The translations under genes and the position numbers were made by a program. Of a stretch of DNA of 15,685 bases, positions 1-15,655 are shown in pieces (position 1 is the first letter of the stretch; each line of letters starts with the position of its first letter). Source of the DNA: a bacterium (GTDB taxonomy: Bacteria > NPL-UPA2 > JAGMAN01); contig JAGMAN010000001.1 in NCBI GenBank assembly GCA_023130215.1, positions 1 through 15,685 on the forward strand, written 5' to 3'. The notes beneath the pieces are model-generated. The model did not search any database. It saw only the letters and a list, made by a program, of their open reading frames with translations, and was not told where the DNA came from.

Positions 1-67
1 GCTACACCTCTTAATAAAATCGCAACTCCTATATTACAACCCCTTAAGGAATAAGTCAAACAATTTT
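1..67 (-). repeat. Direct repeat R1, copy 1 (promoter-bearing, cut by window edge)
   Basis: This copy matches 2620-2695 base for base except for one 9-bp indel, which is one unit of a tandem TTGCGATTT present twice in the other copy. On the minus strand it holds a promoter-like pair, TTGACT (54-59) and TAATAT (31-36), 17 bp apart. In the second copy the same promoter leads to an ATPase-like start codon, so an ATPase gene probably begins just left of this window. The true length of the repeat is unknown because the window starts inside it. Confidence 0.85.
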
Positions 68-113
68 TTGATGCCTCTTGGGAATTCACCCAAGAAAGCT
101 GAGAACTTTTATC

Positions 114-143
114 TTGACAGGTGCGTCTACAATGGAGTATAAT
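114..143 (+). promoter_or_regulatory. Consensus sigma70-like promoter facing right
   Basis: Perfect TTGACA (114-119) and TATAAT (138-143) hexamers lie 18 bp apart on the plus strand. Nothing convincing is encoded downstream on that strand. Transcription from here would run antisense into the 3' end of the nucleotidyltransferase gene at 216-1094. A chance match in AT-rich DNA, or a relic promoter of a lost gene, is possible. Confidence 0.4.
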
Positions 144-215
144 TCAGGACGATGTGGAGAGAGCAGCAAAATCAGCGGATAAACTTTGAGTGGAAAAGCA
201 ATTTATCATTAGAAA

Positions 216-1094
216 TCATTTTAACAACAATGACAAGAATTCATTAACCTGCATATAAGAATCTGTGGCTATACGTTCCCTTTCTTCCTTTGACGCTTCT
301 CTGCTGCCAGCTAAAAAATCTGCCACCCACTGTGGGCCAATAGAATCTTTCGTCTTAAACTTTTCCTGGATATTCTCTATAGATTCATTAACAAGTCTAT
401 TTTTCCTATGAGGTCTTATGGTTTCTGCTGCAGAGCGAAAGCCATCTTTAAAATGCGAAACCATTGAATAAATATCGTAAGCATCTTTCTCACTGTAACG
501 CACACCAAGAACTATGCCCTTCGTAGTTAAAGTGGCAACCAAATCAGCTACCTGTATTTCTATTTCGTTGTAAGCACCTCCAGGCAACTTCCCCTTTAGC
601 CTATACATAAAAAAGTGCTCAAAAACGATGTCTATACCTCTGGCTTTTCTTATAAATAACTCCGATTGGATTATTTGATGGCGCCTTTGCCTTCCTCTGC
701 CACCGTATTCTGGGCCCAAGAAATCAACCTCTATCGGTTGTTTATCTTTATATCCGGGTATCGATATAGCCTTCTCAAAAGCATAGGGTATTGCTCTGCC
801 TTCTTTGTCTAAAGAATGGGTATAGCCGTGTTCTTCTATAAGCTTAAGTATTGACTCGTATTCAACTCCAGAAATCTTTTTTGGATTAACTGCAATATCA
901 ATATCTAAAGAGCCTGCGTGGACAAAATTGTCGTCAGGAGGTTTAAACATTTCAACGATAAAATAAGGTGCCCATCCACCTGCCAAAACAAGCGACTTTC
1001 TATAAGCGCCTAATATAGTCATTATCTCTAAGAGTATAGACTTTGACGCTCCTACAAGCCTGGCATCTAAATCCGCAATTGATCTCCTGGTCAT
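216..1094 (-). CDS. AbiEii-like nucleotidyltransferase, toxin of TA module 1
   Basis: A 292-aa protein with the nucleotidyltransferase fold of AbiEii/MNT-type toxins. The nucleotide-binding Gly-Gly is at residues 39-40, and the metal-binding Asp-Ile-Asp at 64-66 follows a Gly-Ser. A likely third carboxylate is Asp124 (IEVDF), and a late KDAYDIY motif resembles motif IV of the AbiEii family. Family members are type IV toxins that transfer nucleotides, in some cases to tRNA acceptor ends; the substrate here cannot be read. The gene starts 7 nt after the stop of the AbiEi-like gene, with AAGGAAG as ribosome site, so the two form one operon. It differs strongly from the second AbiEii-type protein at 2703-3545 and is not a duplicate of it. 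Toxin role is inferred from fold and pairing. Confidence 0.75.
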   Translation of the reverse strand: MTRRSIADLDARLVGASKSILLEIMTILGAYRKSLVLAGGWAPYFIVEMFKPPDDNFVHAGSLDIDIAVNPKKISGVEYESILKLIEEHGYTHSLDKEGRAIPYAFEKAISIPGYKDKQPIEVDFLGPEYGGRGRQRRHQIIQSELFIRKARGIDIVFEHFFMYRLKGKLPGGAYNEIEIQVADLVATLTTKGIVLGVRYSEKDAYDIYSMVSHFKDGFRSAAETIRPHRKNRLVNESIENIQEKFKTKDSIGPQWVADFLAGSREASKEERERIATDSYMQVNEFLSLLLK

Positions 1095-1101
1095 ATCTTC
1101 C

Positions 1102-2160
1102 TTAAAATTTTATTTTTTCTCTCCTTAAAAATTCAGCCTGTTCTCTGCCTCTGGCAGGATAATTATACAGGTCAAGATAGAGCTGAATATTGCCAACTAT
1201 ATTAATATCATTCACTTTCTGCACTTCATAAAAAACTTCTCCATCATAGGGAATATAAATAGAAATATTACTTCCCGATTCAACCGGGCGCAGATCAAGT
1301 AAACGAATCCATTCAGGAAGATTTTCGCTATTAGAAATATACATCTGCAGACTGGATACCCCCCTGATAAAAGGGGCAACCAAAGAGGCGCCGGATAACA
1401 GTGTGAGGGCATATCTTAAATTTTTATCTTCAGCAAATTGTCTAACCTTCTTGATTAGTTTCCCCAAATTCTGCTCAAAAGAGTAGTAAGCAAACATTTT
1501 ATTTTGGGTATAAGTATAATTCCTCTGCCATTCATCCAAAAGTTTACCTGGTTCAGTTAAAGAATAAAGGCCCCCTTTGTTTTTCTTAAGATATTCCTCA
1601 TCTATAAGCCAGCGGCAGACATTGGAGACCTGACCAAGACTTACTCTGGCAACTTGTGATAGCTCCAATATTTTCCACTTTTTTTTAGGCTCCTCAAGCA
1701 ATACTCTGACAATGCGGCTCGAGATGGGCTTGAATATTGTCTTAATCCTCCTTTTATCAACAAAAGGATTTTTATCTACGATTCTTTCGATATAAATATT
1801 ATTGAATTCCAAATAGCAATTGCCTGCTAAATCCAGATAGCCTATGCCTCCTTTTTTGAGAATCTCTCTTGTCCGTTCCCCTAAGAATGTTGTTATCACG
1901 ACAGGATATACTTTATTTAAATTCGCTAATTTTTCTTTAAATTGGGCGGATATTTCACGAGCCATACGTGGCTGCAAAAGCTCCTTGATTTCGCAAACTA
2001 GAAGCCATTCTTGCCGATTCTGTGTCTTTATCTTAAATGTTAAATCAAAGATCCAGCCGGAAATCTTCTTATCAATCTCTATCTTACCAAGCCTAAGTGT
2101 AGGCAATAAGGAAGGTAGTTCCTTTAAGATCCGCTGTCTTATTTCGTTGGCTTTCATCAT
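1102..2160 (-). CDS. AbiEi-type antitoxin/regulator with PD-(D/E)XK-like N-terminal domain
   Basis: A 352-aa protein, first gene of TA module 1. Residues about 1-130 look like a restriction-endonuclease-like fold: Asp39 (WIFDLTF) followed by Glu57-Ile-Lys59 (LVCEIK) fits the D-x(n)-ExK spacing, then comes a conserved-looking GYLDLAGNCYL stretch. Residues about 145-205 form a winged helix-turn-helix (ILELSQVARVSLGQVSNVCRWL). The C-terminal half is the effector-like domain seen in long AbiEi-family antitoxins. Such proteins repress their own operon and neutralise the nucleotidyltransferase. GGAGAG lies about 12 nt before the ATG, a rather long spacing; a second ATG follows at once. A strong promoter and palindrome lie directly upstream. 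Nuclease activity of the N-terminal domain is a guess; several such domains are only structural. Confidence 0.7.
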   Translation of the reverse strand: MMKANEIRQRILKELPSLLPTLRLGKIEIDKKISGWIFDLTFKIKTQNRQEWLLVCEIKELLQPRMAREISAQFKEKLANLNKVYPVVITTFLGERTREILKKGGIGYLDLAGNCYLEFNNIYIERIVDKNPFVDKRRIKTIFKPISSRIVRVLLEEPKKKWKILELSQVARVSLGQVSNVCRWLIDEEYLKKNKGGLYSLTEPGKLLDEWQRNYTYTQNKMFAYYSFEQNLGKLIKKVRQFAEDKNLRYALTLLSGASLVAPFIRGVSSLQMYISNSENLPEWIRLLDLRPVESGSNISIYIPYDGEVFYEVQKVNDINIVGNIQLYLDLYNYPARGREQAEFLRREKIKF

Positions 2161-2191
2161 ATCATTTATATTCTCTCCGCTATATAAAGAT

Positions 2192-2209
2192 TTTCAACAT
2201 TCGTTGAAA
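2192..2209. promoter_or_regulatory. Inverted-repeat operator candidate of module 1
   Basis: A perfect 7-bp inverted repeat, TTTCAAC-4 nt-GTTGAAA, touches the -10 box of the module 1 promoter and covers the expected transcription start. AbiEi antitoxins are known to bind inverted repeats for autoregulation, so this is the natural operator candidate. Confidence 0.6.
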
Positions 2210-2237
2210 GTATACTATATAGTGAAATATATGTCAA
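2209..2237 (-). promoter_or_regulatory. Promoter of AbiE-type module 1
   Basis: On the minus strand, TTGACA (2232-2237) and TATACT (2209-2214) are separated by 17 bp. The -10 box ends about 50 bp before the start codon of the AbiEi-like gene. Confidence 0.75.
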
Positions 2238-2277
2238 GTCTTGCGTTTTTGCGTTTTCACTTGAAATGAGATTAACT

Positions 2278-2489
2278 TCAGCCTTCTGGTGGGACTAAGG
2301 GGGCTACGGTCATAATCTTTTTAGCCTGCTCTGGATACTTAGCAATGAACTTTAACTCATCATTAGTGAGTGGCTTTTGAGTATGGACATTAGCATAGCG
2401 AGTTAACTCTAAGATTTTGGTTGCTTCCTCATCATCCTTAAATTCTATCTCCAGCTTATCATAAACATTTCTAAATCCTTTGATTCCTC
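2278..2489 (-). pseudogene. Displaced 3' tail of the acyltransferase gene
   Basis: These 212 bp align with 4601-4812, the last 70 codons and stop of the intact acyltransferase gene. There are 9 differences: 8 fall on third codon positions and are synonymous, one changes Arg to Lys, and there is no frameshift. Homology starts exactly at the stop codon and ends near 2489, where the sequence becomes the start of an ATPase-like gene. The fragment has no start codon or promoter of its own in frame. The pattern of change means both tails diverged while they were still coding. Confidence 0.9.
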
Positions 2490-2567
2490 TCTGCTCTTTA
2501 AATCTTCTCTCCCAGCAAAGTCTTGGGGACTTACGGGATTGTTGGAGTCATATGGATTTACAACCAT
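2490..2567 (-). pseudogene. 5' fragment of an AAA/ATPase-like gene, cut after 26 codons
   Basis: An ATG at 2565-2567 with a strong GGAGG ribosome site opens a frame containing NPYDSNNPVSPQDFAGRED. That resembles the N-terminal signature (NPYxxxxPVxxxxFxGRE) placed before the P-loop in many stand-alone bacterial and archaeal ATPases. After about 26 codons the sequence switches to the acyltransferase tail in the wrong frame, and the chimeric frame ends at a TAG at 2445-2447 (40 aa). No Walker motif is left. The intact gene is predicted to lie left of the window, behind repeat R1 copy 1. Family assignment rests on a short motif only. Confidence 0.6.
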
Positions 2568-2619
2568 TTCTATCCCTCCAGGTTAGATTATCGCAATTAT
2601 CGGAGAAGTCGCAAAAGAA

Positions 2620-2695
2620 GCTACACCTCTTAATAAAATCGCAAAAATCGCAACTCCTATATTACAACCCCTTAAGGAATAAGTCAAACAATTTT
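2620..2695 (-). repeat. Direct repeat R1, copy 2 (leader of the truncated ATPase gene)
   Basis: Second copy of the repeat at 1-67. It holds the -35/-10 pair and start of the 5' leader for the truncated ATPase-like gene, and begins about 8 bp beyond the stop codon of the AbiEii gene at 2703. It carries a tandem pair of TTGCGATTT units; the first copy has one. Further TTGCGAT/TTGCGAC motifs continue downstream at 2608-2614 and 2590-2596. Confidence 0.85.
2659..2687 (-). promoter_or_regulatory. Promoter for the truncated ATPase-like gene
   Basis: TTGACT (2682-2687) and TAATAT (2659-2664) are spaced 17 bp apart on the minus strand. The leader to the ATG at 2567 would be about 85 nt and contains four TTGCGAT/C motifs. 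Confidence 0.5.
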
Positions 2696-2702
2696 GATAC
2701 TG

Positions 2703-3545
2703 TCAAGAAATGAATAATCCTGCCTGTCTAAGTTCTCGCTGTACTGCTCGATAAACCCGGCTGAATTCCGGAAGTGCTGTCATTTGAGAAGTAAGACGCA
2801 GATTCCAAAGTTTTTCTAAGCGCGCTTCTTTCCGTAGAAACGTTTCCCTTATGTCAATCACTTTTTCACCCCGGAACCTCCACTTCTGCTCAATGGCTTC
2901 AACCAACCCGGATAGATTGACATATTGATTGTAAGTCAGGTGCCATATATCATAAAGATCCCGAGGCTCATTCCGCGCTCTATCCAGGAGAGCAACTACT
3001 TTTTCAACAGCTATCTCATCGAGGGAATAGACACAAACAGTTACATCGTCAGGCAGATCTTCGTATTCCTTGTATCCCTTGAGAACTATTCTCTCTTTAA
3101 TTGGGAAAACAATTTTTTCTCGTACTGTAATATCTATCTTGACTTCCTTACCGGAAACGCCGGGTAAAGGACCTTCATATCCCAGAAAAAAAGTATAGCT
3201 GTTTTCATGAGTATGGCGGTCATAACGGCTAAAATGCAGCTTGATGCCTGAGTCTTGCTGTATCCGACTAAAGGCAACATCAAGATCCTTTTGAATGTTC
3301 TCAAAAGGAAATTTCTCTACGAGCGTGAAATCAAGGTCTTCTGAAAAACGATATTCAGGGATATAGCATTTCTTGATGGCTGTCCCTCCTTTGAATACGA
3401 GAATATCCTTAAGCAGACTATAGGATAACCCTATTAAAAACCAGGAGAGGCAATAATCACGTTCAAGGACTGCCTCCGGAATACGCCGCCCTTTTTCTCG
3501 GGCGAGCCGATTGGACAATAACGAAAGATTGCGCTGGGGTATCAT
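2703..3545 (-). CDS. AbiEii/AbiGii-family nucleotidyltransferase toxin, module 2
   Basis: A 280-aa protein with all motifs of the canonical AbiEii family. Motif I is GGT at 53-55 with Lys58, then RFSEDLDF (66-73) with the two metal-binding Asp at 70 and 72. Asp138 in KIDITVRE is the likely third carboxylate. The late motif EIAVEKVVALLDRARNEPRDLYD spans about 177-199. These enzymes are the toxins of type IV TA and phage-abortive-infection systems and transfer nucleotides to RNA targets. The gene starts 3 nt after the stop of the AbiEi gene, implying translational coupling. Length is slightly below the usual ~300 aa but nothing essential is missing. Repeat R1 begins within 10 bp of its stop codon. 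Confidence 0.9.
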   Translation of the reverse strand: MIPQRNLSLLSNRLAREKGRRIPEAVLERDYCLSWFLIGLSYSLLKDILVFKGGTAIKKCYIPEYRFSEDLDFTLVEKFPFENIQKDLDVAFSRIQQDSGIKLHFSRYDRHTHENSYTFFLGYEGPLPGVSGKEVKIDITVREKIVFPIKERIVLKGYKEYEDLPDDVTVCVYSLDEIAVEKVVALLDRARNEPRDLYDIWHLTYNQYVNLSGLVEAIEQKWRFRGEKVIDIRETFLRKEARLEKLWNLRLTSQMTALPEFSRVYRAVQRELRQAGLFIS

Positions 3546-3548
3546 TGA

Positions 3549-4385
3549 TTATGTCCTTACCGCATATAGAAGTTCTTCAGGAGAGACATTAAGCTTAAGT
3601 CTCCATTTACGCAGGAATTTTCCCTCAGATGGTAAAAGAGGGTCTAACCGCACATAAGTTTCCGTCAAATATGGACGAAGGAGTTCACAATCTTTAGAAG
3701 TGCCTATTTTATAAAGCTCAAGTAAAAACCCGAGCCTGCGGATAACAGCGCCTACATCACTCTTCACTGCATATTTGATAAGCCGGCTTATATTCATATC
3801 CTGATGACGTATCCAGAGTCCCTTAGCCACCTCTGTCAGGCCGCCGCAATATTCCGGATGCTTAAGGCCGCCGATGATTGTTCGTTCAAGGTCACTGACC
3901 CTTACTTTTTCCTGTTTGGTTGCCCAATAGTCACTCAGACCAAAGAAAAGTTTTTTTTGACTATGAATAAATCGAAACTCAACACCAAGCGTGTTAACGG
4001 GCCTGCGTGGTTTTAAAGTTGTTACATAGACAACCAATTGAGGTTGAGTAACCATTCCATGAATTTCCATAGCTGTCCCATGAGAGAGATAGTAAGCCTT
4101 TCCGCCCATAATCTCACGAGCTGCAATGAGCGGATTTCCTATATATTCACATTCCTTTCCCATCTCAAACGGGACCAGGATGAAAAGCCCTGGTTTCAAG
4201 CGTGTAACGACTCCTCTGTTCACAAGCTTGCGGACAAAATTACGGGAGGAGGCTTCGTCTAAATGAAGGATTTTCTGTACCTCTTTCAGTCGAAACACAG
4301 GTTTATTTTGCTCATAAAGCGTGGTAACCAAATGAGCGGCCCGAGGTCCTAATGTTTTTAGTTTATCATTATTGTTATAACGCAT
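3549..4385 (-). CDS. AbiEi-family antitoxin and transcriptional repressor, module 2
   Basis: A 278-aa protein of the classical AbiEi type. An N-terminal winged helix-turn-helix (about 15-72, including VFRLKEVQKILHLDEASSRN and RLKPGLFIL) is followed by the AbiEi C-terminal domain with YYLSHGTAMEIHG (98-110). In characterised systems the N-terminal domain binds operator repeats and the C-terminal domain blocks the AbiEii toxin. It is the first gene of a two-gene operon, 3 nt before the toxin. The start is supported by GAAGGA six bases upstream; this ribosome site sits inside a palindrome that probably is the operator. It is unrelated in architecture to the longer AbiEi-like protein of module 1. 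Confidence 0.88.
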   Translation of the reverse strand: MRYNNNDKLKTLGPRAAHLVTTLYEQNKPVFRLKEVQKILHLDEASSRNFVRKLVNRGVVTRLKPGLFILVPFEMGKECEYIGNPLIAAREIMGGKAYYLSHGTAMEIHGMVTQPQLVVYVTTLKPRRPVNTLGVEFRFIHSQKKLFFGLSDYWATKQEKVRVSDLERTIIGGLKHPEYCGGLTEVAKGLWIRHQDMNISRLIKYAVKSDVGAVIRRLGFLLELYKIGTSKDCELLRPYLTETYVRLDPLLPSEGKFLRKWRLKLNVSPEELLYAVRT

Positions 4386-4387
4386 TT

Positions 4388-4406
4388 TGTGTCCTTCTGA
4401 GACACA
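4388..4406. promoter_or_regulatory. Inverted-repeat operator candidate of module 2
   Basis: TGTGTC-7 nt-GACACA lies between the -10 box and the start codon, covering the expected transcription start and the ribosome site. Its position relative to the promoter mirrors the palindrome of module 1 although the sequence differs, fitting autoregulation by each AbiEi protein on its own site. Confidence 0.55.
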
Positions 4407-4434
4407 TTTTACATCAAGAATATAACTTTGTCAA
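4406..4434 (-). promoter_or_regulatory. Promoter of AbiE module 2
   Basis: TTGACA (4429-4434) and TAAAAT (4406-4411) with a 17-bp spacer on the minus strand. The leader to the ATG at 4385 would be only about 14 nt. Confidence 0.75.
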
Positions 4435-4529
4435 GGGGAGTTCGCCATTTTTTTCTGAAGAACCAAATCGATTTTTTCAGTTTGTCGTCGGGGGAGCCAA
4501 GCTCGGGGTTGGTGGAAACCAATAGGGCG

Positions 4530-4560
4530 ATTTGTCTTTCTTTCCCAACAGTGAGACAAA
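4530..4560 (-). other. Stem-loop downstream of the acyltransferase gene
   Basis: ATTTGTCT and AGACAAAT form an 8-bp perfect stem around a 16-nt loop, about 40 bp past the acyltransferase stop. No T-run follows on either strand, so it is not a typical intrinsic terminator. Confidence 0.3.
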
Positions 4561-4600
4561 TTGGTCCATAATGCCACAGTTAACGCCAACAAACTCATTC

Positions 4601-5851
4601 TCAGCCTTCCGGTGGGACTAAGGGGGCTACGGTCATAATCTTTTTAGCCTGCTCTGGATACTTAGCAATGAACTTTAACTCATCATTAGTGAGTGGCTTT
4701 TGAGTATGGACATTAGCATAGCGAGTTAACTCTAAGATTCTGGTTGCTTCCTCATCATCTTTAAACTCTATCTCCAGTTTATCGTAAACATTTCTAAACC
4801 CCTTAATTCCTCCGTATTCTCCCACAGTTATCTTTCGACCGCTCTCCACTATCTCCGGCTCTCCCCTTCCTAACTCCTCGAAGTCGTAAAGTTCATAGTT
4901 GCGCCTATCTTTCAAAGCTCCATCAGCATGGATGCCGGATTCATGGGCAAAAGCATTCTCCCCTACCCCAACCTGATTTATGGGAATGGGAACTCCGAAG
5001 GCATAACCTGCATATTGGGCAATCTTCCACGCCTTGGCTAAGTCCACTCTCTCATCAAGAACATATTTATCCTGGTGGAAACCACTGGATTTCTTGATGG
5101 CTAAGATGACTGAGACAAGGTCTGCGTTTCCGGCCCTCTCCCCCATTCCGTTAAGGGCGGTATTTACATAGGCATCCACTCCTCCGTCAATAGCTCCCTT
5201 CGCTCCAGCCACTGAACAAGCCACCGCCATCCCCAAGTCATTGTGACAGTGAAGCTCTATGGGAATCTGGACCTCCTCTGCTAACATCTTCACTCTCTGG
5301 TAAATGGTAAAGGGGTCATCGTAACCAAGAGTATCGCAGTATCGGAACATAGCCGCTCCATGCTCTTTGGCGGCTTTAGCAAATCTCACCAAATACTCGT
5401 CATCGGTTCGGGAGGCATCCTCAGCATTGACTCCAACAGTCTCCGCCCCCAACTCTTTAGCTTTCTCCAATACCTCAACCATCATCTTGAGAACATCCTC
5501 CCTGGTCTTCCGCCCCTGAAATTTCCCGTTAGTCATCTGTTCTGAAGTGGAGATGGAAAGATTTATGTGCTTTATCTTCGTCAACCTGAAGGAGTTCTCC
5601 ACTTCCTTAAGTATAACCGGGCACCAGCCTTCCAGGCACATGGGCTTAATTACTCCCATCTCAGCTAATTCTAAATTGGCATTGATGTAGTTTATCTCAT
5701 GATGAGTGTAAGGGAAGCCAAGTTCGCTCTGAAATACCCCCATCTCATTGAGGAAGATGTTTATCATGGTCTTCTCTAATTTAGCTAATCCCAACCGGGA
5801 AGTCTGCACTCCGTCCCGATTGGTAACATCAATAATATAGATTTTGTTCAT
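4601..5851 (-). CDS. DRE-TIM acyltransferase (homocitrate synthase / Re-citrate synthase type)
   Basis: A 416-aa member of the HMGL-like acetyl-CoA-dependent acyltransferases. Visible active-site elements are Asp8 with Arg12-Asp13 (DVTNRDGVQ), Glu43, the metal-binding His201-x-His203 (ELHCHNDLG) and GMGERAGN (235-242). The family condenses acetyl-CoA with a 2-oxo acid. This branch, with [15 protein letters not shown] and [11 protein letters not shown], is usually labelled homocitrate synthase, but a Dehalococcoides protein so labelled was shown to be a Re-citrate synthase; oxaloacetate is therefore a serious alternative to 2-oxoglutarate. It lacks the C-terminal regulatory domain of 2-isopropylmalate synthase. 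Its start overlaps the serA stop by 4 bp, so the two are translationally coupled. The last 70 codons are duplicated at 2278-2489. No symbol is given because the substrate is uncertain. Confidence 0.85.
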
Positions 5852-7519: not shown

Positions 7520-7702
7520 CTATCCTGATAATCCTAAATATTTCTTGATATGCTTTGCTAAATCATTGTCAATCTCCGTATGGCGCGGAACAGGTTGCTT
7601 TTGTCTGGTTACCGGATTTATATAAATATCGTGATTAGCTCCTGGTCTCAAGTAAACGCATCCTGCTTTCGTCAGCTGACGAATAAGCTCTTTGCGTTTC
7701 AT
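7520..7702 (-). CDS. hicA: HicA-family mRNA interferase toxin
   Basis: A 60-aa protein with the compact double-stranded-RNA-binding-like fold of HicA. The N-terminal helix (KRKELIRQLTKAGC) is followed by the signature RPGANHDIY; His24 is the expected catalytic residue. HicA toxins cut mRNA and are neutralised by HicB. The start codon overlaps the hicB stop (4 bp), so expression is coupled. The order is antitoxin first, the less common of the two hic arrangements. The pair sits between the aminotransferase gene and serA, so it interrupts what looks like a serine-synthesis operon. An attC-like hairpin begins at its stop codon. Confidence 0.9.
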   Translation of the reverse strand: MKRKELIRQLTKAGCVYLRPGANHDIYINPVTRQKQPVPRHTEIDNDLAKHIKKYLGLSG

Positions 7703-7890
7703 ACAGCTATCTCTTTCACCTGGTGTTCTTCTGGAACCTCATCCATAGCCATTGACATATAGGCGTCCTTGATATTTTCTTCAAGTTCTTCTATTGTTTC
7801 TCCTTGAGTCATTATCTCTGGATGCTCCAGAATCTTACCAATCCAAAACTTGTCTCCCTTCCAATATACCATAGTCATTTTGCTATACAT
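7699..7890 (-). CDS. hicB: HicB-family antitoxin, short form
   Basis: A 63-aa protein containing the HicB partial RNase H-like fold: a strand with YWKGDKFWIGKILEHPEIMTQGETIEELEENIKDA, then a helix with AMDEVPEE. Short HicB proteins like this one lack the C-terminal helix-turn-helix or ribbon-helix-helix, so autorepression may be absent or indirect. AGGAGGT seven bases before the ATG fixes the start. It follows the aminotransferase stop by 21 nt and overlaps hicA by 4 bp. Confidence 0.88.
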   Translation of the reverse strand: MYSKMTMVYWKGDKFWIGKILEHPEIMTQGETIEELEENIKDAYMSMAMDEVPEEHQVKEIAV

Positions 7891-11258: not shown

Positions 11259-11271
11259 CCAACACCTTATA

Positions 11272-11344
11272 TACCCCCACCAGGGCTCGAACCTGGGACA
11301 CCCTGATTAAGAGTCAGGTGCTCTTCCAACTGAGCTATGGGGGC
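11272..11344 (-). tRNA. tRNA-Lys (anticodon CTT)
   Basis: A 73-nt cloverleaf: acceptor GCCCCCA/TGGGGGT (first pair G-U), anticodon stem CCTGA/TCAGG with loop CTCTTAA, T-arm CAGGTTCGAGCCCTG, discriminator A. Its 5' half is copied at 14394-14433, which makes it the likely integration target of the island to its right. Confidence 0.94.
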
Positions 11345-11379
11345 AACTGTTTATATATCAATGACTTATGATTCCTAAT

Positions 11380-14393: not shown

Positions 14394-14433
14394 GATTAAG
14401 AGTCAGGTGCTCTTCCAACTGAGCTGTGGGGGC
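14394..14433 (-). pseudogene. tRNA-Lys 5'-half fragment (attachment-site-like)
   Basis: Forty bases match the first 40 nt of the intact tRNA-Lys at 11305-11344 with one mismatch, in the same orientation, ending in the anticodon loop. No tRNA 3' half follows. A displaced tRNA half in direct orientation is the usual scar of an integrative element; the pair would bound an island of about 3.1 kb. Confidence 0.85.
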
Positions 14434-14473
14434 AAGTCTATCATATTGGATATTTAGATGGAATAATGTTTGG

Positions 14474-15256
14474 TCAAAATGTCCAGACAGGAGTACTGCC
14501 TACACTTAAAAGTTTGCCTTTACGATTTAATGCTTTTAGTTCTGCGATAATTATCTGCCAATAAATCCTGTCTTGCTGCCTGAATTTTTCAATTTCAAGA
14601 GCAATCGCGTTTGAGACAGAAGAAAAATTATTTTGCAACGCATACTTTAGACATTTCCTTGAAAGTTTCTTACAAACTTTTCTGGCATCTCGATGGTTTT
14701 TAAGATAAAATAATATATCTTCCGTTTCAAAACTATTAGTCAGGATCCATACCCAGTCTTCATCTTTTATAACACTTGCACGCATTTTCTCATATTCTTG
14801 CCTGACCAAATTCGAGATTATTGGATAATCTGTCAGCCGTCTTGTCTTTTTTATCTGAACCAAATCCCTCAGGCCAATAGTTGCGATTTTACCCCATTCT
14901 GTTTTGCAGAAATTGACATTCTTATAGGCCGCCTGAAAAGACCCTACTCTGGGAACGACACCCATAACATCCAGAAACCAAATGGGGTCCTCCTGCTCTG
15001 TAGAGGGAACCTCAAAGTGATAACCATGGCCATTTTGAATAAAATCAAATTTTATAGGCGGGGTAACCTTGTATATCTTTGCCTTCGATTTGCGCAGGCA
15101 GTCTATAAACTTTTTCCAATTTTCCGGCTCAGGAGAAATCCAGAGATCAATATCTTCTGAAAAGGTTGCCGCTCCATACAAGACAGTTGCCTGTCCGCTA
15201 ATAAGTAAATATTTTATATTATTGCGAGTAAGGTGTAGGAAAAATTTTTTTATCAT
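14474..15256 (-). CDS. Nucleotidyltransferase-fold protein, third TA-like enzyme
   Basis: A 260-aa protein with the nucleotidyltransferase core common in MNT/AbiEii-like genes: ISGQATVLYG (19-28), then FSEDIDLWI with Asp35 and Asp37, and a probable third carboxylate at Asp96 (WFLDVMG). The motif GLRDLVQIKKTRRLTDY follows, where such proteins keep conserved Lys/Arg. It shares little with the other two nucleotidyltransferases in the window. It overlaps by 38 bp with a 58-aa ORF upstream, implying a coupled two-gene unit. The ribosome site is weak (AAGAG), as expected for a coupled gene. Whether it is a toxin or a silent nucleotidyltransferase relative cannot be told from sequence. Confidence 0.8.
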   Translation of the reverse strand: MIKKFFLHLTRNNIKYLLISGQATVLYGAATFSEDIDLWISPEPENWKKFIDCLRKSKAKIYKVTPPIKFDFIQNGHGYHFEVPSTEQEDPIWFLDVMGVVPRVGSFQAAYKNVNFCKTEWGKIATIGLRDLVQIKKTRRLTDYPIISNLVRQEYEKMRASVIKDEDWVWILTNSFETEDILFYLKNHRDARKVCKKLSRKCLKYALQNNFSSVSNAIALEIEKFRQQDRIYWQIIIAELKALNRKGKLLSVGSTPVWTF

Positions 15257-15524: not shown

Positions 15525-15539
15525 TAAAAACCAACCTCC
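15525..15539 (-). repeat. 15-bp repeat upstream of the proximal promoter
   Basis: GGAGGTTGGTTTTTA on the minus strand, identical to 15656-15670. It lies 23 bp upstream of the proximal -35 box. Confidence 0.75.
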
Positions 15540-15609
15540 TAAACCTTACCAAGCATCCTTCCCCACCTTTTTTCTCCAATTTTCGCGCTTCCTTTTCAGG
15601 CTATGTTGG

Positions 15610-15639
15610 ATCTTATCACATTGGATTCGATCCTGTCAA
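15610..15639 (-). promoter_or_regulatory. Distal promoter of the small-ORF/nucleotidyltransferase unit
   Basis: TTGACA (15634-15639) and TAAGAT (15610-15615), 18-bp spacer, on the minus strand. No convincing gene lies between this and the proximal promoter. Confidence 0.5.
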
Positions 15640-15655
15640 GTATTTCGATGATCCT

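Follow-up and report, generated by a model that had tools for sequence, protein, structure and literature searches.

Integrase-less hotspots, with recombination in the core genes on their flanks, have already been described (PMC5635113, 2017). The locus reported here resembles them in that variable cargo lies beside a conserved gene, no integrase is seen and a homologous flank is involved. However, the flank in this case is a gene tail repeated within one contig, in the one genome sampled for its species, and relatives do not share the sequence that flanks the two AbiE cassettes on the right. Core defence hotspots of Pseudomonas aeruginosa likewise carry defence cargo at a constant position in the chromosome; those hotspots recur among strains, whereas here no relative was found with the same cargo and the species is represented by one genome (PMC10250203).

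The cargo itself is comparable to the AbiE type IV toxin-antitoxin (TA) system, in which the AbiEii toxin is defined by the motifs hG[G/S]...DhD, with x of about 15, lysine motif III and +DxxD (Dy et al., 2014; PMC3985639). As in that system, the modules are two-gene operons with AbiEi first and an AbiEii-type nucleotidyltransferase second, and the hGG...DhD and +DxxD motifs are present. In contrast to it, the toxin of the second module spaces GG and DhD by 23 residues and is missed by the Pfam AbiEii family (PF08843/DUF1814), and both modules are predicted from sequence.

Layout of the region

The window, that is, the whole stretch of DNA analysed, is a contig (C1) at its full length of 15,685 bases, window base 1 being contig base 1. 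It belongs to a draft genome of 1.01 Mb in 136 contigs, with an estimated completeness of 90% and contamination of 0.08%. The species is sampled by this one genome, and comparisons were made, according to the search, with eight relatives (G001-G008), with 10 relatives and 80 loci, or with 290 genomes.

Read on the minus strand, the region runs from a serA-like gene through the intact synthase gene, an 82-nt piece of galK, a 76-nt IS end, AbiEi-1 and AbiEii-1 to the repeat R1, an ORF start, a 212-nt copy of the synthase tail, AbiEi-2, AbiEii-2 and R1 again, where the contig ends (Table 1). The first-pass annotation had placed the repeats and operons correctly, and all were found again where it had put them. 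Its description of the same two landmarks around each operon holds in that the tails are 96% alike and R1 is shared, but the second R1 is cut at 67 nt and scraps of other genes split module 1 from the synthase. Just 67 nt of this second R1 can be seen, with no ATPase gene behind it, because the window starts at contig base 1. The direct repeat is far beyond chance, and chance is ruled out as the source of the arrangement.

Table 1. Positions of the features discussed, in order along the window.
Feature	Position	Strand	Basis or remark
R1 copy 2	1..67	-	Repeat match; cut by contig edge
AbiEii-2, divergent AbiEii-like nucleotidyltransferase	216..1094	-	292 aa; conserved AbiEi_2 partner
AbiEi-2, AbiEi_2-type antitoxin	1102..2160	-	PF09952 3e-10, over its cut-off
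Operator-like palindrome TTTCAACGAATGTTGAAA	2192..2209	-	Sequence pattern; precedes AbiEi-2
AbiE2 promoter-like site, TTGACA-17-TATACT	2209..2237	-	Sequence pattern
Synthase tail, repeat copy 2	2278..2489	-	212 nt, 95.8% to copy 1
ORF start, first 28 codons ('ATPase' of the first-pass annotation)	2484..2567	-	No family match; tail cuts in at 2489/2490
R1 copy 1	2620..2695	-	Repeat match; TTGACT-17-TAATAT promoter-like site inside
AbiEii-1 toxin, nucleotidyltransferase	2703..3545	-	PF08843 9e-40; PADLOC 8e-76; motifs
AbiEi-1 antitoxin	3549..4385	-	PF09407; PADLOC AbiEi 8e-76
AbiE1 promoter-like site, TTGACA-17-TAAAAT	4406..4434	-	Sequence pattern
IS4-like element end, 76 nt	4455..4530	.	83% to C66:1-76; outer tip at 4455
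Internal galK fragment, 82 nt	4531..4612	-	96% to C11:1428-1509; joins synthase stop at GAAGGCTGA
Synthase tail, repeat copy 1	4601..4812	-	Last 212 nt of intact gene
Intact synthase gene, HMGL-like + HCS_D2	4601..5851	-	Domain matches; homocitrate/isopropylmalate/citramalate-synthase type

The gene originally called an acyltransferase is present, although its family is of the HMGL/homocitrate-synthase type, and a search of the bin found one full copy of it in the genome. It makes no direct contact with AbiE1, since the galK fragment and the IS end lie in between. The word at which the synthase stop and galK are joined, GAAGGCTGA, occurs in both genes. Compared with the intact galK, the fragment has only two synonymous changes and a further one where it is joined, and for this reason was probably cut recently from a working allele. 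A full copy of the IS element, bounded by 23-bp inverted repeats and encoding a DDE transposase, opens another contig (C66).

R1, of 67-76 nt, lies downstream of each AbiE operon. Its two copies share identical blocks of 52/52 and 25/25 nt and differ only by one 9-nt tandem unit, in keeping with the near-complete identity first reported for them. The ORF that follows R1 opens with MVVNPYDSNNPVSPQDFAGREDLKSREE, a motif that we take to be reminiscent of the start of some AAA-type ATPases; it reaches a stop after 40 codons and is out of frame with the synthase tail. Its 28-residue start had no match in Pfam, PDB chains, plasmids or the 290 genomes other than its own. The DNA of R1 and the ATPase start was absent from G001-G008 in a DNA search, no R1 was found in viral contigs, and a plasmid search with the whole region gave two weak AbiEi matches and nothing else.

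The two AbiE-type operons

By its sequence, AbiE1 looks like a standard AbiEi/AbiEii pair, and both operons look genuine. AbiEi-1 lies directly upstream of AbiEii-1 with a gap of 3 nt, in the operon order of AbiE type IV TA systems, and AbiEii-1 carries GG-x15-DLD, the lysine motif KVVALLDR and RDLYD under the published definitions (PMC3985639). The two cargos are unrelated, as had been proposed: there is no significant DNA similarity between the operons, and the kinship of the toxins is distant, at 21% identity across 107 aa (E 0.016).

Module 2 is taken as a predicted, divergent AbiE-like TA pair. AbiEii-2 had no Pfam or NCBIfam hit over cut-off, and its PADLOC match to AbiEii was weak (E 0.031); comparison of its profile with that of AbiEii by hhalign gave a probability of 88.5%. 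The motifs GG-x23-DID, KGIVLGVR and KDAYD can be recognised in it, and a single-sequence AlphaFold model was too poor to use (mean pLDDT 33). In 12/12 loci from other genomes with upstream DNA visible, an AbiEi_2 homologue stood directly upstream of the partner homologue on the same strand, and the pair recurs across genomes of many different families (L153-L165 and window 216-1094). An AbiEi_2 antitoxin accompanied by a conserved nucleotidyltransferase that falls below current Pfam and NCBIfam cut-offs is a simple annotation gap to close.

A second AbiEi_2 homologue of the genome, on contig C66 (L006:4177-5238), is followed by an isochorismatase-like gene; it has no evident nucleotidyltransferase partner and is apparently a solitary antitoxin. 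Between AbiEii-2 and R1, a perfect TTGACA-18-TATAAT site is present on the plus strand (window 114-143), with no obvious product.

A mosaic synthase tail

The likeness of about 95% claimed for the tails was measured at 95.8% over 212 nt, and the differences are unevenly spread. Copies 1 and 2 differ at eight positions in the first 73 nt, seven of the eight changes being synonymous, while the next 129 nt are the same in copies 1 and 2 and in a third copy on contig C11, a stretch in which G001 and G002 do differ. Over the last 139 nt, copies 1 and 2 show only one difference. Within the 73 nt, their divergence is similar to the distance of either copy from G001 or G002, which is about genus-level. 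The left part of copy 2 thus looks like a working allele from a diverged strain and its right part like the resident type. Such a mosaic, with 8 of 73 positions differing and then 129 identical, would arise if diverged strains had recombined, or if the assembly had passed through the stretch that they share; for the one genome of the species, it is suggestive of a hotspot of homologous recombination. Wherever the DNA search detects the tail in a relative, there is a single copy of it.

A third tail and the neighbours of the synthase in relatives

Outside the window, contig C11 opens with the third copy of the tail, of which 130 nt are visible, the contig start cutting it. It is followed by a PHD_like antitoxin (PF12910), a truncated HicA-like remnant, the intact galK, pyruvate dehydrogenase (PDH) genes and a gene resembling LptD. 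The names given to the last two were read from sequence. We rejected an assignment of the first C11 ORF as HicB, as its match is to PF12910, PHD_like. In the third tail the usual ending (PPEG and the stop) is missing and the frame would run on through some 20 other residues (L005:127-199), so that this copy is either defunct or, in another strain, a changed C-terminus. One assembly hence holds three tail contexts, each with a different TA-type cargo: AbiE1 after the scraps; AbiE2; and the PHD-like antitoxin with the HicA-like remnant and galK.

In the sister genome G002, of the same genus, the same pyruvate dehydrogenase begins some 60 nt after the synthase, so that C11 retains the native right-hand neighbour, with cargo inserted. 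The neighbour in G001 is a prs-like gene, and those in other genomes, with no AbiE or other TA gene found among them, include prs, PDH and purA-type genes besides others, under names read from sequence of which only some were family-tested. No homologue of AbiE or of the ATPase start was found near the synthase, in flanks of up to about 8 kb, among 80 loci and 10 relatives. The first-pass annotation had proposed a conserved slot between an acyltransferase and an ATPase gene, and had suggested that relatives in which the two were never neighbours would speak against it. This largely held for the relatives searched, G002 having PDH in that place, and it speaks against the slot; R1 is missing from G001-G008, the 28-aa start from the 290 genomes, and AbiE or ATPase neighbours from the relatives. 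As neither R1, nor the ATPase start, nor AbiE lies beside the synthase in relatives, a fixed slot was not found. What survives of the proposed swappable cargo is variable TA cargo behind a shared tail, in three contexts and with a mosaic tail, but not the fixed two-gene slot.

Origin of the arrangement

The explanation that we favour, if tentatively, is that the 3' end of the synthase gene is a genuine hotspot of recent rearrangement in a small TA-rich genome, and that the TA operons are its persistent passengers. In this scheme, DNA from a diverged strain would have recombined homologously through the shared tail. We infer, from one side of each join only, that short-homology joins at GAAGGCTGA (gene end to galK) and GAGGAAT (ORF start to tail), together with the IS element, would have cut and joined the remaining parts. 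The outcome would be a partial head-to-tail duplication, with two cassettes carrying different TA operons. These operons would be ordinary passengers, each driven from a promoter of its own and pairing an AbiEi-type repressor/antitoxin with a nucleotidyltransferase of AbiEii type; by analogy with AbiE, they probably persist by addiction and possibly act by abortive infection of phages. Dedicated exchange machinery is neither needed nor seen, and no integrase-like protein was found among the long ORFs of 1-4815, the DNA to the left of the window lying beyond the contig. In our view the locus has the look of a place where DNA is locally rearranged, not of a device dedicated to swapping genes, and some of the arrangement may be an artefact of assembly.

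The main rival, which we regard as a real possibility, is a composite of two or more strains, each with its own cargo after the gene, between which the assembler crossed via the 129 nt of identical tail. That stretch is the same in three contexts and exceeds common k-mer sizes, C11 starts at the first base past a difference between copies 1 and 2, as it would at a branch of the assembly graph, and the genome is a draft in 136 contigs. However, the 2489/2490 junction has no long shared sequence from which an assembler could invent it and would be absent from either simple parental strain; furthermore, the bin holds one full synthase copy and no duplicate of the rest of the window, and the contamination estimate is 0.08%. 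It is unlikely, we believe, that all the pieces form one chromosomal array, running gene, AbiE1, tail, AbiE2, further DNA, tail, PHD antitoxin, galK and PDH, in which each TA cassette brought its own tail and TA/defence genes were captured, with no integrase, by homologous recombination in the gene's 3' end. If the tandem is true, the locus would offer, from a candidate phylum that has been little studied, a fresh snapshot of TA cargo building up beside a core gene with no integrase in sight.

Distinctly unlikely is the model first put forward, of a dedicated, exchangeable defence slot between synthase and ATPase that received a second allele from a circle by single crossover. The order of the parts and the shared flanks fit an integrated circle, the mosaic tail suits such an event, and a circular donor with a single crossover is a possible source of this order. 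The slot is not conserved, though, as the synthase of relatives has neither AbiE nor the ATPase start next to it; the 'ATPase' has no recognisable identity; and a crossover with a diverged donor predicts differences on the 3' side too, where there is just one in the last 139 nt. Harder still to credit is a plain tandem duplication of tail, cargo, R1 and ORF start in one genome, with later decay and replacement of one cargo: the head-to-tail order agrees with it, as does a scrap of galK behind the first tail and an intact galK behind the third, but the cargos are unrelated, and the nearly all synonymous differences between the tails are at odds with decay in situ. Site-specific integration by an element that enters the 3' end of the gene and supplies a new tail would account for the sharp left boundary of the tail copy but is very improbable, given that 1-4815 has no integrase-like ORF and that the differences cluster close to the boundary, just where an att core would be expected to show none.

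The original observation was careful and correct and its interpretation over-specific. The kind of locus is ordinary, and its modest interest comes from the fresh junctions and the poorly annotated AbiEi_2 partner.

Other repeats and TA-type loci in the window

Several TA-type loci are present in the window. Beside serA (window 7520-7890), a small HicA toxin (PF07927) has an upstream UPF0150/HicB-like partner with a weak match. A 260-aa nucleotidyltransferase-like protein (window 14474-15256) matches AbiEii only below threshold (E 0.078).

A duplicate of the 5' half of tRNA-Lys(CTT), at 98% identity (window 11271-11346 and 14394-14435), suggests that the synthase locus is not the only one to undergo such events. 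The two halves flank an insert of 3 kb that encodes an MqsA-type antitoxin and a 503-aa protein and contains a DUF2283-like ORF, and words like AATTGTGCCCTTAT, together with CCCATTTCGG, occur near both ends of it. The tRNA region of G002 can be aligned with either copy, as far as 11358 and 14447, respectively. A dispersed repeat at window 15526-15640 is 82-85% identical to C114:6774-6887 and C59:42-147.
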